DNA of 51,237 bases from Candidatus Woesearchaeota archaeon (lineage in GTDB: Archaea; Nanobdellota; Nanobdellia; Woesearchaeales; JAGVZT01): assembly GCA_018263355.1 (NCBI GenBank), contig JAANXH010000045.1:1-51237 (forward strand), in the 5' to 3' direction. Position 1 is the first letter of the stretch, and every line of letters begins with the position of its first letter. Positions 1 through 39,709 of the stretch are shown here, one piece after another. The notes below the pieces were generated by a model that worked only from the letters and a program-made list of their open reading frames with translations, did no database searches and had not been told where the DNA came from. A program made the position numbers and the translations under genes.

Positions 1-176
1 ACATTTTCAAGTTCCGAAAAAGTGGTAGTCAAAGCAGAGGCGACAATACCCCACATCATGTCACTAACGTTCCTGACCTTAAGCATAGCTTAAGGCTTTA
101 TTGTGGGGATCGGTGCTTTTAGGCACCCACCGAACACAGTGACTGTGAGCCTCTGCACCACTTTTTAGTTATTTTA
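1..176 (+). ncRNA. 3' part of a structured non-coding RNA, copy A of a multicopy family (5' part lies outside the window)
   Basis: Gap-free repeat of 2344-2519 with about 5 mismatches in 176 nt. Nested stems: AAAAAGTGGT/ACCACTTTTT, GCAGAGGC/GCCTCTGC, ACCCCACA/TGTGGGG, CCTTAAGC-ATA-GCTTAAGG, GGTGC-TTTTAG-GCACC. No plausible conserved protein. Confidence 0.6.
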
Positions 177-1617: not shown

Positions 1618-1914
1618 TTTTATCTTACCTCATTATGTTAAGAAAAAGTCAATTAAAATAATAATAATTTCAATGCTTTTTCTTTTCAACTATTCAGCCT
1701 TTGTACTTTAGATTATAAATCAACACATTTTAATGTATTTTCAGAAAAAGCACATTGCTGTTTATTCTTTCTTTATTCTGATAACAAGAAGTAGCCTAAA
1801 GTTACTTATAAGTGTTTGGGTTTTATTACTGATTTTTAACAAAAATAAGTGATATTACGCTAAACAACATATATTTTTGTGTTTTAAATATAACTAGAAC
1901 AATATTACTGCATA

Positions 1915-2255
1915 ACGAAAATCTGCGGTGAGGAGCAATCCCCATAATAAATTATGGGGTTTTTAACACTCCTCACTTTTACTTAGAATGCGTTGGGTCT
2001 AAATGTCAGGACTATTCGTCCTGATCATGCTCAGGAAGGTACGCTTCCCGACAGCCCCTGACTTATCTCACTAGCGTTCCTAACACATAAATCATAGATT
2101 TCTGACATTTAACCAGTAGCATTGTAATGCAGTCACTCCACACATTCGTGTTTTGTTCGGCATCCATAAGCTTTGCTTCTGGAGTCTGAAAAGCTATCGT
2201 AAGATAGCTGCCGAGTGAACAAAGTGAACGAATGCATCTGCTTGTCAAAGGGAAG
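1915..2255 (+). ncRNA. Structured RNA region, diverged member (copy D) of the same family
   Basis: Stems GGTGAGGAG/CTCCTCACT enclosing CCCCATAA-TAAA-TTATGGGG; AGGAC-TATTC-GTCCT; GGAAG-GTAC-GCTTCC; AAATGTCAG/CTGACATTT; GCTATC-GTAA-GATAGC. Shares CACTAGCGTTCCT + ATA-loop hairpin and GAACAAAGTGAACG...ATCTGC with copies A/B. TATA-like TTTTAAATATA about 25-30 nt upstream. Confidence 0.5.
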
Positions 2256-2519
2256 AGTGCAAAAGCCCCCGCCTTTAGGCGATGGGATTAACTCTTCACA
2301 GCAGATTTTCTTTACATGCAGATTTTCTGACTGAAAATCTTTCACATTTTCAAGTTCCGAAAAAGTGGTAGTCAAAGCAGAGGCGACAATACCCCACATC
2401 ATGTCACTAACGTTCCTGACCTTAGGCATAGCTTAAGGCTTTAGTGTGGGGATTGGTGCTTTTAGGCACCCACCGAACACAGTGACCGTGAGCCTCTGCA
2501 CCCCTTTTTAGTTATTTTA
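2256..2519 (+). ncRNA. Structured RNA, copy B of the multicopy family (core 2344-2519)
   Basis: Core near-identical to 1-176. Upstream part also forms stems: GAAGAGT/ACTCTTC with inner CGCC-TTTA-GGCG, and AGATTTTC-TGACT-GAAAATCT. Ends in T-rich tract. Confidence 0.6.
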
Positions 2520-28228: not shown

Positions 28229-31200
28229 CTATGCTTTTTTCTTTTTGACAAAGGTTATCAAGACAGGTATTAGTATTGCTACTGCAACAATTACAACCAC
28301 AATCAAAATGTTTTTAAACACATCTTTTTGCTCTTTGGTTTGCTCTTGATTTAATGATTCTTGTTCTTGATCTGTTGATTCTTGTTCTGTGGTTTGTGCT
28401 GGTGCTTGTTCTTGATCTGTTTCTTCTTCTACAACCACTTGTTCTTGCTCTGCTTGCGGGCTTTCCTCTGCTGAGATTGCAAAGTAACTAAAACCAGGTG
28501 ATGTTGCTTCAAACAAATAATTGTCTGTATCATATCCTTTACTACTAGTTGTAAGCTCTACCCATTTGTCATCCACATACCTATTTAGTTTGATTGTGTT
28601 TTTGTCAATATTGTTGTCACTTACCCAAGATTTACCTACCTTAAAATTGATTTTTACATCACTGACATCTTCTGTTGAGATTATTTTGGGAGTAATTTCT
28701 AGATATTTGTAGACCTTTTTTGAGTGAGCTGTTACACTGCTTGGTTTTTCTCCTAAACCTGCAACCTTAATCTCAGCATTTGTTTTCTGTTCATTAACAG
28801 TAAACTCAACCTTGGAAATAGGTATGTCCTCTTTTGAGACCGGCATTGAAACAGATTCTCCTGATTTTAATTCAGTCCAAACCCTGGTTTCAGATGTTGA
28901 AGCAATGGTTGCAACTGCTGCTCCACCGCCACCTCCTCCACCGCCTCCGTTTCCCCCATCATCTCCACCATCCTCTCCTGATGATTCTCCTGGTTGTCCT
29001 CCAACCCAAGTGGAGAACTGACAATCTGGAACTTCCCAGACACAGTAATCACTTCCTGTCTTATTTAATGTTGCTTCTGTTGTTCTGTTCAAACATTTGG
29101 TCATGTTATTGTCACAGTGCCAGAATTCAGCACAGGTTCCATTTCCTGGAATCCTTAATAGACATTTTTCAGGATAAAGATTATTGATAATCTTATCTCT
29201 TGTGGCTTCAGCCATACCAGCATATCCAACACTACCTCCTGCAGTTGAATTTATAGTTCCTGATTTCAAAGCATCTGCTGCATCAATATCTCTTGTTTTA
29301 CTGTTTAGACCTGTTTTTGTAATTCTTGCATTGACAAATTCAACATAAGAACTGTTATCTGTGGATGTAAGCAAGATGTTTGCTCTTTTACCTGAGGTGT
29401 AATTGGTTTTCATTCCTGCATTTTCACCACAAACATGTCCTTGCCAGTGCTCATAAGTTTCATCTTGATCAAGATCATATTTAACCTCCCAACCAGTAGG
29501 TGCTTTAATTTTAGTCACAAATCTACAGAAAGAACAAGAGCTGTATGTTTCTGTTGTGAAGTTAGAGCATTTACTTGCACCGCATTTTCCATTCTCATCA
29601 CAGATTTTTATTCTGTAATAATAAGTTGAGTCCGGATTTAATCCAAATCCTAATTTGGTTTGGTCCACTTCTGCAGTGTGCCACAACTTATATTCCTCTA
29701 CTCCACTGTTTGTTATTCCAACATCTGCAATTATGTTGTTTAGTGAAGCTGCAGCACATGTGCTGTCATTAATGTAGAAATTCAAAGTTCCATTTGCTGG
29801 CTTATCTGTGAAATAAGATACAAACGCACTATCTGGATATGTTTCTTTCATCATACCAATCACAAGCGGCATTTTTGTATCTTCAAAACTTGATGCTTCT
29901 ACACCAAGGCTATTGTTTACACAATATGGATGTCCATCACAGTAATAACTTTCACAACCAGATTCTGTCCAGCAATCAGTATTTTCACTGTAATAAATAA
30001 ATCCATCATCTGCTCCTACATTACCTGCTTTTTTCTTAGCATCTGTTTCAAATTTAAACATGTCAAATCCATCAAAGTCAAAGTCAAATGCACCAGGGGT
30101 TGCCCAACCTGCATCTGCAAAATCTGAAGGATTTGTATCATTATTGTTTGGACCTGCACTTGCTACTGCTACTCTCAAATCTACTTCTGAATCATACATA
30201 CCTGAGAATTTGCTTAGCTCATTTAAGTCAAAAGCAATCATTGGGCCTCCAAGCATAGAGCACATCATTTGCCTGACACTACTCACACTAATCTCTGCTT
30301 TTACCCATGAACCATCTGAGCACCTATATGCTGCTGGTGAATCAGAAACACTTCCTGATGTGGAATCATAAGTCCAACTATTTTTAAAGTAGAACTCATA
30401 TCCTGGTTGGCTTGAGTTATATTTTAGTTCACAATTGTTTGTCTTGTTTCCATCTGAATCAAGATACCAATAATAAGTTGATTTATTTGTGCCTGAACCT
30501 TTACCTCCACCCATCAAGTTCATATTATTACATGCTGCTGCAAAATTCATTGAACGTACTCCCACTCCAAAACCATATGCTTGACCCATATCTTTCATAC
30601 CAAAGTCAAGTATATCAACTTCTGCATCTAATCCTGAGTCTTGTGGATCTTTACCTAGATCCACAGGCGGTGCTCCCATATCCATTCCTTTAAAGAATTT
30701 TGCTGCCTGTGCTGGATTACACCATCCATTAACCCATCTAAATGAGTTTCCTAGATTTGTACAGTTCTGCTGAGTATCTGCTTGGCTAAATCCTGCTGGT
30801 TCACATCTGCCATCATTAGCAGCACAAAGTGGATGTGCATCACATAATGCAAGATTATTTTGCAGACTTGTATTCCACATACATTCAAATGGTTTTTCAT
30901 CACAAAATTGCTGCTGTTCATTCCATTTACATAAGGAGTGTTGTTCACATATAGTTTGATTATATGTGTATTGTGGACAGTTTTCTCCAAAGTTTATATC
31001 ACAGAAAGGCCAAGGTTCATCAAACCACCCACAACCAGTTTGAGTCTCACATGCTGTTTGGTTACCATCATACTGCATACACTGCATTCCAAATCCTCCC
31101 ATTGCTATGCTATCTCCTCCTGGCCCTCCTCCTCCACCAGAGCTCATTCCAAAGGTCATTTCTCCGCCAAAGCCTTTTGGATCACAAAAACCAGATGTCC

Positions 31201-34135
31201 AGCTACAGCCTGCACTTGAACAAGCAGTTGCATTTGGCTGATTTTTACAATTTGATTTAACTAGTGGTTCACAATCTCCTCCACCTTCATTAAACATCAT
31301 CCACTCACAATTCTCAGCTAAATCACAAGCAGTGGCATTGTTATGGCTGCATGCAAAAAGTTCATGTTCGCAAAAACCTGCATCTTCTCCTTGCTGCTCA
31401 CACCATGGATCTGGCTTCCACATACATGGTTTTACTCCACTAGAATCTGCAGTTCCTGCATTACTGCAAGTTGCATTTACATCCTGGTCGTGCTGCCAGC
31501 ATTCATAATAGGTTGATCCTGAATAACTTGGATTAGGGTCACAAATTGCACCGAAATCTTGACACCATGTGTCCTGTATCCAAGTACAGTTTGCTTTGTT
31601 ATTACAGGTATTTAGATCTAGTCCTTTACACGATTCTCCTATGCTCCAGTTTCCTTCACACATACCGCCAAAGCCAGAGTGCCATTCACAAGTTCCATTT
31701 CCAGTCATATTATTGTTTTCACATTCTAATTGTGAAGTACCATCAAATTTCCAGCATGCTGCAAAAGGCATATCACATTTTTCTCCCCAAGATTCATTTA
31801 TCCATACACAACCTTCACCTTCACAAGAGGTATTGTCACTGAACCCAAAACAGTCAACCCCAAATTGACCAAACATTACATCTCCACCACAAAACGGATC
31901 TGTAAAACACATTGAGTCAGCACAATCCATTTTATTATCATTATTATTATCAATACCATCCCAACAGATTTCTAGTGAATCTGCTCCAGATTTATATTGA
32001 CAGATTGAACCTGACCATTCACAAACTCCCTGTGCATTACTATCTCCTTTTTTTCCACCTTTGTTTTTACAATCAGATTCTGAATAACATTTATCACATT
32101 GATCTGAACAGGTTTTTTGAGATTGTGATACACACGCTCCGCTAGATTCGTCCTGACTATTTGTTGAATCTGCTACCCATTTACACTTTGCAGGACTTTG
32201 ACTGCAATAACAAGATGGAGCTACACAAGTATCATAACTTGCTGTGGTCCCAGTATACTTTGTTGAAGAAGTTGAATCTCCCATTTTTGCACAACTTGCG
32301 CAATCAGTTTTACAATCTCCTGCTGTTCCTTTTTTAAACTCTTCTTTTGGTTCACAATATCCATATGTGTTTGGAGCATTTGTATCACTGGTAAATCCAC
32401 ATATTCCTAATCTGGATTGTCCACATGCTGATTTAGCTTCTGATTGGCTTGCCCAGTTTGTCTTATCAGATTTGTATTCACATGCCTTACAACTTTTATC
32501 ACAGTTTCTCTCATCTTCAAACTTAAATTCACATCTACCTGTTGGAACCTGCATAGATCCTTCACAATAACTTTCAACAATCCATTTTCCACCTGCAACT
32601 TCACAATTTTTCTTATTATCTATTTTAAAGATATTTCCTCCACCTGAGCCAAACACATCTTCTTTTTTAAAGTGACACCTGCTCTCATTTGCATTCCATT
32701 GACAAGGCATGTACCAAGGAAATCCTGCTATTTGATTACATAGAGTTTGACTAGTAAAAGAGTTATAATCATCACAATATTGTGCTCCTTCTGGAGGTTC
32801 TTCCATTTGGTCCCTACAAGAAGATGAGAATTTATCTTCTACACATTCTCCTGCCATCCAATTACAACAAGAACTAAGCAAAGGAAGACTATTACACACA
32901 GTCTTGTTTGTTAATAGTGAACAATTTAATTGATTATTTCCTATTATTGAATTGTTAGTTTCACATCCTCCTGATACCCAATCACACCCAGTTGTATTAG
33001 TACATGTATTTTGATCTGTATCAAATATATAACAACCAGGATTCCATGCCTGAAAGTCCATTTGGATTCCGCCTTGAGAAGGATCATTACAAACAGATGC
33101 TGTCTTGTTCCAAAGACAATACATGCTATCTAAACAATTTTTTTCTGAGTTTATATTTGAACAGGATTTTGCTGTTACATTTTCATAACATTCAGACCCA
33201 CTCCATATACAATTTAATCCAACAGTATTATTTTCACAATTACCTATACTTTGATATGAAAAACATTGTACTTCTTTACACTGGCCACCTGTAAATGTGT
33301 GCCAGAAACAATCACTTGAAGATTGACATGATGAAACATCCCCGTAATTCTTACATCCTAGTTCAGTACAAACACTAGTTGTAGAGTTCCATTGACAATC
33401 TAGTCCTTTAGTATTATTCTCACAGTTACCTACCTTTGTCCAGCTATAGGATTTACAAGTTGTTTCATGACAAGATGAACCTCCCCAGGTACAATTGTTT
33501 GTTTGACAATCTGATAAAGTTGAGTAAGATGAACAACCAGATTCTCTACATTCATTATATTTAGTGTCCCATTCACAAGCATTACCTTGCATACCTACGT
33601 GTGACTCACAAACTGATGCATTAGTATTTGAATAGTCCCAGCAGTCTTCATCTTTACATACTCCCCAGGTGCAGCCTGCAACATTTTCACAGGTTGAAGA
33701 AGAGGTGTAATTCCAGCATGATTTTTCTGGAGGACCCATACATGGAAATTGATAATTAGCAGCATCAAATTCATCAATCCATTCACATTCAAGATTATAA
33801 GTATTATTTACACATGCACTAGCATTTGTTCCTTCAAATGCAAAACAATCAAGGTGATGACAGAATCCAGAGCTTGCTCCAGCGCTCCAAGAACAGGTTT
33901 TGTTTATGAAATATTGGGTGGAGGCATTATCTGCACTAGAACACTCATTTTCAGAGAATAAATTCCAGCAGCCCACTGGTTCACACCAGCTCCCCCAGGG
34001 ATCTTCTCTCCAGGTACAACTAGTTGCATTATTACATGCTGTTTCATCATATTGATGACAATCAAAAGCATAAACACCCACACTCAAAGCAAATATCATT
34101 AGAAAAAGTAGTATAATCCTGTTCTTATTCATCAA
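28229..34135 (-). CDS. Giant cysteine-rich repeat surface protein with PGF-pre-PGF-like domain and C-terminal TM anchor
   Basis: 1968 aa; signal peptide; tandem C-x-x-x...TxCxW...C repeats; C-terminal VEFTVNEQKTNAEIKVAGL...GFSYFAIS; E/Q/T-rich linker; TM then KKKKA. Confidence 0.9.
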   Translation of the reverse strand: MMNKNRIILLFLMIFALSVGVYAFDCHQYDETACNNATSCTWREDPWGSWCEPVGCWNLFSENECSSADNASTQYFINKTCSWSAGASSGFCHHLDCFAFEGTNASACVNNTYNLECEWIDEFDAANYQFPCMGPPEKSCWNYTSSSTCENVAGCTWGVCKDEDCWDYSNTNASVCESHVGMQGNACEWDTKYNECRESGCSSYSTLSDCQTNNCTWGGSSCHETTCKSYSWTKVGNCENNTKGLDCQWNSTTSVCTELGCKNYGDVSSCQSSSDCFWHTFTGGQCKEVQCFSYQSIGNCENNTVGLNCIWSGSECYENVTAKSCSNINSEKNCLDSMYCLWNKTASVCNDPSQGGIQMDFQAWNPGCYIFDTDQNTCTNTTGCDWVSGGCETNNSIIGNNQLNCSLLTNKTVCNSLPLLSSCCNWMAGECVEDKFSSSCRDQMEEPPEGAQYCDDYNSFTSQTLCNQIAGFPWYMPCQWNANESRCHFKKEDVFGSGGGNIFKIDNKKNCEVAGGKWIVESYCEGSMQVPTGRCEFKFEDERNCDKSCKACEYKSDKTNWASQSEAKSACGQSRLGICGFTSDTNAPNTYGYCEPKEEFKKGTAGDCKTDCASCAKMGDSTSSTKYTGTTASYDTCVAPSCYCSQSPAKCKWVADSTNSQDESSGACVSQSQKTCSDQCDKCYSESDCKNKGGKKGDSNAQGVCEWSGSICQYKSGADSLEICWDGIDNNNDNKMDCADSMCFTDPFCGGDVMFGQFGVDCFGFSDNTSCEGEGCVWINESWGEKCDMPFAACWKFDGTSQLECENNNMTGNGTCEWHSGFGGMCEGNWSIGESCKGLDLNTCNNKANCTWIQDTWCQDFGAICDPNPSYSGSTYYECWQHDQDVNATCSNAGTADSSGVKPCMWKPDPWCEQQGEDAGFCEHELFACSHNNATACDLAENCEWMMFNEGGGDCEPLVKSNCKNQPNATACSSAGCSWTSGFCDPKGFGGEMTFGMSSGGGGGPGGDSIAMGGFGMQCMQYDGNQTACETQTGCGWFDEPWPFCDINFGENCPQYTYNQTICEQHSLCKWNEQQQFCDEKPFECMWNTSLQNNLALCDAHPLCAANDGRCEPAGFSQADTQQNCTNLGNSFRWVNGWCNPAQAAKFFKGMDMGAPPVDLGKDPQDSGLDAEVDILDFGMKDMGQAYGFGVGVRSMNFAAACNNMNLMGGGKGSGTNKSTYYWYLDSDGNKTNNCELKYNSSQPGYEFYFKNSWTYDSTSGSVSDSPAAYRCSDGSWVKAEISVSSVRQMMCSMLGGPMIAFDLNELSKFSGMYDSEVDLRVAVASAGPNNNDTNPSDFADAGWATPGAFDFDFDGFDMFKFETDAKKKAGNVGADDGFIYYSENTDCWTESGCESYYCDGHPYCVNNSLGVEASSFEDTKMPLVIGMMKETYPDSAFVSYFTDKPANGTLNFYINDSTCAAASLNNIIADVGITNSGVEEYKLWHTAEVDQTKLGFGLNPDSTYYYRIKICDENGKCGASKCSNFTTETYSSCSFCRFVTKIKAPTGWEVKYDLDQDETYEHWQGHVCGENAGMKTNYTSGKRANILLTSTDNSSYVEFVNARITKTGLNSKTRDIDAADALKSGTINSTAGGSVGYAGMAEATRDKIINNLYPEKCLLRIPGNGTCAEFWHCDNNMTKCLNRTTEATLNKTGSDYCVWEVPDCQFSTWVGGQPGESSGEDGGDDGGNGGGGGGGGGAAVATIASTSETRVWTELKSGESVSMPVSKEDIPISKVEFTVNEQKTNAEIKVAGLGEKPSSVTAHSKKVYKYLEITPKIISTEDVSDVKINFKVGKSWVSDNNIDKNTIKLNRYVDDKWVELTTSSKGYDTDNYLFEATSPGFSYFAISAEESPQAEQEQVVVEEETDQEQAPAQTTEQESTDQEQESLNQEQTKEQKDVFKNILIVVVIVAVAILIPVLITFVKKKKA

Positions 34136-34295: not shown

Positions 34296-34440
34296 GCCAA
34301 TGCAAGGAAAAAGTGGCACAGATGCTCACAGTCACTGTGTTCAGTGAGTTGCTCTGGCAACCATACACTGAAGGTTTCAGCTACGCTGAAATTTAGGAAC
34401 ATTAGTGACATGATGTAGGGTATTATACCCCATAGAAAAT
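34296..34440 (-). ncRNA. Diverged minus-strand copy C of the structured RNA family
   Basis: Reverse complement contains TACCCTACATCATGTCACTAATGTTCCT, TTTCAGC-GTA-GCTGAAA, GTTGC-CAGA-GCAAC, CTGAACACAGTGACTGTGAGCATCTGTGCCACTTTTT; TATA-like TTATATAA upstream on the minus strand. Confidence 0.55.
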
Positions 34441-34606
34441 CCCTCAATGCGTGATTTTCAATAATCTATTTTTCATGAGGAAAAATGCTTATATAATAAA
34501 AGACCAATTTTACAAAACATTTAGGCTTTAGCATGCTAATTAAGTGATTTTGAGTATTTTTCGAAAGGTTTATATATTCATTTTATCAATTAAAGTAGTT
34601 AGAGGG

Positions 34607-36749: not shown

Positions 36750-36859
36750 GCCTCTGTAGCATAGTGGTGGTGCGTAGCCTTGGTATGTTCAACTTGTTAT
36801 TTAAAGCGAGTTGAGCGACATAAAGGCTAAGGTCCCGAGTTCAAGTCTCGGCAGAGGCT
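36750..36859 (+). tRNA. tRNA-Thr(GGU) with 37/38 intron at 36786-36823
   Basis: GCCTCTG/CAGAGGC acceptor, TAGCC/GGCTA anticodon stem, loop TTGGTA^A, T arm CCGAG-TTCAAGT-CTCGG. Confidence 0.92.
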
Positions 36860-37983: not shown

Positions 37984-38898
37984 ATGCCTTTGGAGAATAA
38001 TGTGTCTAACAAAAAACTGGTCCAATATATTAAGGATACACTAAAAAAAGGGTTTAGCAAAGCAGATATAGAAAACGCGCTCTTACAGAGAGGTTATACT
38101 GAAGATACTATAAGACAAGCTTTTCTTCAAGTTAACTCTAGAAATACTAATTTTACAAAAACAAACAAAGCAGTCAAAAATAAACAGTACAAACCACCAA
38201 ATAAAAAAGCTAATAAATCTGTTAAAACTAACATACCAAATAAAAAATATGGTCTGCCGATTGCAGCATTTATTTTATCTTTGATTCCTGTTTTTTCGTT
38301 AATCGGATTAATCTTAGGAATTGTGAGTTTAGTTAAAATCAAGAAAAACCCTGCACTAAAGGGAAAGGGTTTTGCTATTGCTGCGATTGTGATAAGTTCA
38401 TTAGGTTTAATTTTCACTGCTTTAGTTTTTGGTTTAGGTCTTAGTTTTGTCAGAAATGTTTTCGGTCCTAGTTTACAAGAACCACACATGCTTGATATTG
38501 GTAAGCAAACATTAATTGAAAACCCACCAACACAAGACAAACCTTTCACTTTATCTAAAGCAGAATTATTTTTAATGTTAGGAGAAGAATTAACTATCAA
38601 TGCAGGTTTTTATAATAAATTTAATGAATCAGTTGAATCAAGTTTGGATATTCATAGTTGTTATACTAAAGGTAAAGATACTACAGACCAAATTAGTTTT
38701 ACAACAACACAATCTAAGGAAGTTGCAGCCAATGATACGGTGGCATTTCCAGCAATTATTACAGCTTCAAAAACAGCATCTTCTGCAATACATGCTTGTA
38801 CTTTAGTTATTACAGCAAAACCAATTGGTTCTCAAAATGAAGAAGAGAAATTTTATCAAGACATATTAATTACTATTAAATCCAATATCTCAGAATAA
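37984..38898 (+). CDS. DUF4190-like membrane protein with N-terminal helical domain
   Basis: KKYGLPIAAFILSLIPVFSLIGLILGIVSLVKIKKNPALKGKGFAIAAIVISSLGLI; N-terminal LVQYIKDTLKKGFSKADIENALLQRGY. Confidence 0.8.
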   Translation: MPLENNVSNKKLVQYIKDTLKKGFSKADIENALLQRGYTEDTIRQAFLQVNSRNTNFTKTNKAVKNKQYKPPNKKANKSVKTNIPNKKYGLPIAAFILSLIPVFSLIGLILGIVSLVKIKKNPALKGKGFAIAAIVISSLGLIFTALVFGLGLSFVRNVFGPSLQEPHMLDIGKQTLIENPPTQDKPFTLSKAELFLMLGEELTINAGFYNKFNESVESSLDIHSCYTKGKDTTDQISFTTTQSKEVAANDTVAFPAIITASKTASSAIHACTLVITAKPIGSQNEEEKFYQDILITIKSNISE

Positions 38899-38944: not shown

Positions 38945-39709
38945 GTGGCTGACCAACAGCTTGTTGAATACATTAAAAATACACTAAAGAAAGGGTTTAC
39001 TCAACCTGAAATAGAAAGAGTTCTTTTTGATAATGGTTATTCTAAAGATGATGTTAGCCAAGCTTTTTTAGAAGCATATAGTAACCAAAATTTAAATGCT
39101 GAAGAAAAACCAAAAAAACGAACAAGTAAAATACACACACAAGTACCAATTAAATCATCTAAGCAAAAAAACAAAAATAATTCTCACACGAAAAAAGTCA
39201 AGTCAAATAAAAAATATGGTCTGCCGATTGCAGCATTTGTTTTATCTTTGATTCCTGTTATTTCGTTAATCGGATTAATCTTAGGAATTGTGAGTTTAGT
39301 TAAAATCAAGAAAAACCCTGCACTAAAGGGAAAGGGTTTTGCTATTGCTGCCCTGATTATTAGTATTATCAATATTATTCTTATAATAGTGGGTGTATTA
39401 ATGGTTTTACCACTCTTTTTAGCAGCATCAAGAATGAGAAGTTTTGGAGGGAATTTTTCTTATTTAACAGAATCTAATCCTATTAGCGCAGATTCCTGTG
39501 CTTCTTTAGAAGGATTTTCTAAAGATATGTGTCTTATAAAAGCAGCAAAAGACCAAGGAGATGTGGGTATTTGTGATAGTCTATCTAACTCCCTACAGAA
39601 AAAAGATTGTATTCAAACTGTAGCTATTGAAACAAAAAATCCAGACCTTTGCAGTTTAATAGAAGATAGTGCTGCAAGTGAAAAATGTTTGAGTTATGTT
39701 ACTAGATAA
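38945..39709 (+). CDS. DUF4190-like membrane protein, paralogue of preceding gene
   Basis: Same N-terminal and TM modules; different Cys-containing C-terminus; GTG start. Confidence 0.8.
   Translation: MADQQLVEYIKNTLKKGFTQPEIERVLFDNGYSKDDVSQAFLEAYSNQNLNAEEKPKKRTSKIHTQVPIKSSKQKNKNNSHTKKVKSNKKYGLPIAAFVLSLIPVISLIGLILGIVSLVKIKKNPALKGKGFAIAALIISIINIILIIVGVLMVLPLFLAASRMRSFGGNFSYLTESNPISADSCASLEGFSKDMCLIKAAKDQGDVGICDSLSNSLQKKDCIQTVAIETKNPDLCSLIEDSAASEKCLSYVTR

Follow-up and report, generated by a model that had tools for sequence, protein, structure and literature searches.

The repeats that include the minus-strand sequence at positions 34464-34308 of the window (the whole stretch of 51,237 nucleotides that we analysed) are best explained as transposase-less elements of the IS200/IS605 type, or PATEs (palindrome-associated transposable elements), which would have been mobilised in trans as single-stranded DNA and would later have gained hairpin modules. 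We give this reading a probability of about 0.85. The evidence consists of the ends of the copies, their target sites, element-free joins, the letters of the guides, the positions of the modules, mosaic copies, and a genome in which no transposase was detected, all as read from the sequence. In the mechanism that we propose, the near-terminal palindromes would fold when the DNA is single-stranded and be recognised by a putative Y1 (HUH) transposase acting in trans, and a four-base guide at the foot (AATA in family D and AAAG in family B) would set the site of cleavage and insertion (TTAT/TTATT and TTAC, respectively). The element would travel as single-stranded DNA, putatively without target duplication. 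Later, a TCACT-N-GTTCC module or its inverse would enter the apical loops of the palindromes, and a twin-hairpin module would enter the guide/stem boundary, with tandem modules on the 3' side. Recombination between copies at common blocks would then yield mosaics in which loops are conserved and whole stems are swapped.

The D family and the probable expansion of its palindromes

The host genome (G000) is 1.17 Mb in size and its small-subunit rRNA is archaeal; judging from its kin, with one genome per family, it probably belongs to the order Woesearchaeales. Two sequence blocks and paired stems, described in an earlier note on this region, can be read directly off the minus strand, which carries ACATCATGTCACTAATGTTCCT (about 34416-34395) and GAACACAGTGACTGTGAGCATCTG (34342-34319). 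The second block has three matches in the window versus 0.00 expected in shuffles, and the first block alone is weak, with five matches versus 1.8 expected. Folded as single-stranded DNA, the 34464-34308 region exceeds each of 200 shuffles in stability (z = -3.7), and copy A reaches z = -6.9. The features of element D, and copies A and C of the same family, are as follows:

34460-34464, minus strand: target TTATT, left flank of element D; TTAT stands directly before 23 of the 24 D-family left ends in the genome
34308-34459, minus strand: element D, a D-family copy with a type 2 left end and one near-terminal palindrome
34421-34424, minus strand: AATA, the putative four-base guide at the foot of the palindrome, with letters and position as in the tnpA-carrying IS200 elements of two related genomes (G018 and G026)
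34361-34420, minus strand: near-terminal palindrome with a module in its apical loop, CCCTACA (34420-34414) and TGTATGG (34367-34361) forming 6/7 pairs
34396-34408, minus strand: block b, TCACTAATGTTCC
34375-34391, minus strand: hairpin c, TTTCAGC-GTA-GCTGAAA
34348-34361, minus strand: hairpin d, GTTGC-CAGA-GCAAC, which belongs to a set of at least seven interchangeable hairpins
34332-34342, minus strand: block b', GAACACAGTGA, complementary to b
1-173, plus strand: copy A, a D-family element of which the contig start leaves the right part, ending in AGTTATT
2316-2516, plus strand: copy C, a D-family element with right end AGTTATT

The right end of element D is decayed, with ..CCACTTTTTCC in place of ..CCACTTTTTAGTTATT (compare the 173-nt copy on contig C13, in which it is intact). 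A 1968-aa open reading frame without a Pfam match (28229-34135) adjoins the element. Elsewhere in the window, a tRNA gene at 36750-36859, found by Rfam but missed by ARAGORN, is interrupted near the anticodon by a long stretch that is probably an intron, and a 161-nt direct repeat (38237-38397 and 39204-39364, 95% identical) lies inside two adjacent DUF4190 genes.

With element D as the query, more than 30 places genome-wide matched at E < 0.001, partially or completely and many of them at contig ends, and copy A gave a similar pattern; copy counts rest on sequence searches and retrieved loci. In complete copies the left end is TGAAAATTTTACAGG or GAAAATCACGC, after TTAT(T), and the right end is either AGTTATT or CGTTAT, so that right ends terminate in TTATT or TTAT. 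As a T follows type 1 right ends in nearly all copies, the D site comprises four or five bases. On contig C37, two D elements stand head to tail with one TTATT common to both. Complete element copies, at 135-655 nt, are too short to hold a transposase gene.

The shortest complete D copy (C58, 135 nt) has two palindromes without inserted blocks, ..TTTAATA-CCTCACACTTCAGTGTGA.. and ..GACAATA-CCCCACAATTTATTGTGGGG.., and longer copies keep both arms with extra sequence in the loops, CCCCACA[TCATGTCACTAACGTTCCTGACCTTAAGC..]TTTATTGTGGGG and CCTCACA[TAATATCACTTACGTTCCTAACTTTCAGC..]CTTCAGTGTGA. Long D left ends also have a twin-hairpin module between guide and stem, TTTAATA[TGTC..TAAGA]CCTCACA. In the sister family B, the feet of both hairpins read AAAG in short copies (137-138 nt), which have TTAC at either end, while in long copies the left guide is split, TCTAAA[TGTC..GACA]GCCCC, and b-type modules occupy the apical loop of the left palindrome and in some also that of the right. 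The modules measure about 40-55 nt, contain hairpins and lack clear inverted terminal repeats; they are found in either orientation and also in tandem. The GGAAC-N-GTGAG and CTCACT-N-GTTCC modules are a single kind read in opposite directions, each beside a hairpin. In a D-family copy at C50:7265-7460 (locus L024), the inner palindrome and the block b that it contains run opposite to the ends of the copy, and copies on C31 and C27 (loci L070 and L071) are chimeras of D-family left ends and family B middles, joined at the common block TCACTTACGTTCCTAAC.

Module-free copies are found at 135 nt (C58) and 137-138 nt (C50, C8, C60), and G057, a genome from another family of the order, has two B-type copies with covarying stems of their own, one module-free and the other partial. 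Because module-free copies exist both here and in this distant relative, it is probable that the longer copies acquired their hairpin modules, within apical loops and where the guide meets the stem, judging from sequence comparison. The opposite direction, with long copies ancestral, short copies as deletion products and modules never inserted, is in our judgement unlikely. Repeat-mediated core deletion between palindromes is known for Haloquadratum PATEs (PMC3119063) and element D looks like a fused single-palindrome form, but deletion leaves unexplained why four different palindromes carry related modules at corresponding places. The short forms also agree with the canonical IS200 hairpin, and the G057 copy is module-free in another family altogether. 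As to how module gain might have proceeded, template switching during replication is as possible a route as transposition. We tentatively raise, as a somewhat doubtful idea, that the modules are second-order single-strand parasites that insert at the apical loop or guide/stem boundary of IS200-type palindromes, at a place chosen by fold over sequence, and that remodel or lengthen the ends that the transposase recognises. A 12-mer, GAACGAAGTGAG, occurs 108 times in 61 genomes of the order versus 10 times for its reversed control; it lies in a hairpin loop at several loci and resembles the GGAAC..GTGAG part of the modules. In the literature, the motif GAACGAAGTGA and its complement gave unrelated text matches only.

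The two orientations of one module also account for the pairing of GTCACT in the first block with AGTGAC in the second, which had been suggested as a possible tertiary contact. The contact can form in the predicted DNA fold of element D, but it has no support from covariation because it hardly varies, and it crosses the CCCCACA/TGTGGGG palindrome. In copy A the predicted fold favours the palindrome over the crossing b/b' pairing, and in element D, where the palindrome is weaker, b/b' forms.

Covarying stems and the functional RNA reading

The earlier note held that the hairpin arms differ between copies yet still pair, and took this as typical of functional RNA. For hairpin c the first part holds, with true two-sided changes in two of eight pairs (C-G to T-A and A-T to C-G). 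This covariation involves two main hairpin types only, plus two chimeras (C13 and C37:634) that mix arms of both types and have a broken stem. The change from GGTGC..GCACC to GTTGC..GCAAC, by contrast, is not compensatory; GGTGCTTTTAGGCACC and GGTTGCCAGAGCAACC are separate hairpins in the slot before GGAAC..GTGAG, which holds at least seven unrelated hairpin types across copies. Selection for some hairpin in this slot is plausible, but stepwise compensation is not what the data establish. Across 21 distinct, module-bearing D copies, two-sided changes were found in 28 cells versus 11.3 in shuffles, and 89.2% of cells were paired versus 82.9%, although these shuffles ignore the relatedness of the copies. 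Among the module-free copies (five sequences from G000 and G057), two-sided changes affect 7 of 25 pairs, pairing is kept in 97.6% of cells, and none of 500 shuffles reached the score. The stem changes are mixed, some of them compensatory and others swaps of whole hairpins.

The fold is thus conserved and some of its stems covary, but we think it more likely that the hairpins serve in jumping as structures of single-stranded DNA, the form on which selection would act, than that they are functional RNA. A dispersed RNA (riboswitch-like, ribozyme or omega-RNA-like), with stems covarying under selection on the RNA fold, would be in keeping with the stable folds of copies D and A, with the excess of two-sided changes over shuffles, and with the similarity of short guides and hairpins to the right-end region of TnpB elements. 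We nonetheless regard it as very unlikely. Rfam found no family match to the element at either gathering or permissive thresholds (the only hits were tRNA and a chance CRISPR-repeat match), the genome lacks a detected TnpB, hairpins are swapped whole with chimeras that break the stem, and the copies have fixed transposon-type ends and target sites, with some family B copies inserted within reading frames. Covarying stems in dispersed repeats, then, need not imply RNA.

Insertion sites and the link to IS200/IS605 elements

Insertion without target duplication, 3' of a short fixed target in the left flank, is clearest in family B, of which the window holds one element:

1983-2315, plus strand: family B element of 333 nt that interrupts another D-family piece at TTAC, with right end ..CAGCAGATTTTCTTTAC
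1979-1982, plus strand: family B target TTAC
1912-1982, minus strand: inverted type 2 right end (GCAGATTTTCGTTAT) flanking the B insertion

The stretch 1912-2516 thus combines an inverted type 2 right end with a right end of the D family, and the family B element breaks this composite at TTAC; the same site is uninterrupted at four places (C35, C56, C47:75374 and C26). Among 17 distinct left ends in the retrieved loci, 16 are preceded by TTAC, and all 13 right ends are closed by TTTAC. A 5-bp target duplication was considered and rejected, since the base before the left TTAC is variable (ATTAC, GTTAC, CTTAC) and the right end is constant. To read the empty site we joined the flanks of family B copies, from which all of the joins come. 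At C8:8450 the join restores a DUF2000 domain (2.5e-11, residues 9-111, junction at residue 97) and at C34 it gives a 283-aa open frame, while the join at C47:4013 reaches into the neighbouring gene and is not clean evidence. At C4:22063 (locus L084), a family B remnant breaks a histidine-rich frame that by its look resembles a cation-efflux transporter. Conventional MITEs, moved by a DDE transposase with duplication of TTATT or TTAC, would also show a short sequence repeated at both ends, strong structures and no coding capacity, but they are highly improbable here, as the left and right 5-mers of family B differ, the termini are not inverted repeats, and relatives hold IS200 elements with the same ends.

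One of these IS200 elements, in G026, encodes a 151-aa TnpA (NF033573, 2.9e-36) and is present twice, with 544 nt in common from TTTATT to TTTATT. It has AATA-CCCC at the left palindrome and GATA-CCCC at the right, followed by ATTGGG, and shares with family D the TTTATT site at both ends, the AATA-CCCC hairpin foot and ATTGG after the right palindrome; its GGGTTTAATACCCC corresponds to GGTTTAATACCTC in D. The IS200 of G018 has TTATT with AATA on the left and TCATT with the guide GATA on the right, which on our reading fits the guide pairing logic of IS608 (PMC5934647). In IS608 itself, the left site is TTAC and the left guide AAAG, 5' of the hairpin (PMC5934647). The letters at the hairpin foot thus match the putative cleavage site in both families, AAAG with TTAC in family B as in IS608, and AATA with TTAT in family D by analogy and from the G026 and G018 elements, and the near-terminal palindromes resemble IS200/IS605 ends in the same two comparisons.

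Y1 transposases were found in 23 of 61 genomes of the order, and the host genome is not among them. Searches for the Y1 transposase (PF01797) and the TnpB zinc ribbon (PF07282) gave no match in this genome, which is 99.96% complete, nor did the G026 TnpA as a protein query, in a search run without a positive control. Because the assembly consists of 60 contigs, many of which end within repeats, an autonomous copy could be missing from it. Element D had no match in 60 relatives, and an exact block was absent from viral contigs. Its single match in GTDB genomes, on a bacterial contig of 49% GC and outside any element copy, was taken as chance. Bacterial-type REP/BIME sequences of a RAYT transposase, which dispersed palindromes with guide tetranucleotides and the loop motif GAACGAAGTGAG, common in the order, might call to mind, are scarcely credible, as the genome has no detected Y1 protein and hence no RAYT (TnpA-REP) gene, the ends at TTAT and TTAC are defined, no GTAG guide is present, and a published survey reports the IS200 subclass alone in Archaea (PMC6006769).

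Comparison with known systems

By analogy, the closest precedent is the PATEs of Haloquadratum walsbyi, which are invaded by SMR-A repeats in a process whose mechanism has been called enigmatic (PMC3119063). Like them, the elements described here have no transposase, near-terminal palindromes related to IS605 ends, a short target oligonucleotide at the left end without target duplication, and terminal-only shortened forms, which element D resembles in its single palindrome and decayed right end; in neither case is an intact transposase needed in the same genome today (PMC3119063). Unlike those PATEs, they belong to other sequence families in another archaeal lineage, with small hairpin modules enlarging most of the copies. 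Family B shares with IS608 the TTAC site and the AAAG guide 5' of the hairpin foot (PMC5934647), but its elements lack tnpA and tnpB, and their right site and guide are also TTAC and AAAG rather than TCAA and GAAT. The IS200 elements of G026 and G018, from the same order, have the TTATT site, the AATA-CCCC hairpin foot and ATTGGG after the right palindrome, but carry tnpA and have module-free hairpins. The tnpA gene in related genomes offers a means to test the elements.

As judged from short and long copies, the modules resemble SMR-A in being short repeats within near-terminal palindromes, without target duplication and with an unexplained route of mobilisation (PMC3119063). However, SMR-A is about 110 bp long with prominent inverted terminal repeats, and we do not class the modules as SMR-A because they differ in length and in the lack of clear repeats of this kind. 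With them, the entry of small repeats into IS200/IS605-type palindromes would be documented a second time in Archaea, independently and in a lineage far from Haloquadratum, and as module-free and module-bearing copies occur together in one genome, the points of insertion can be resolved to single bases.
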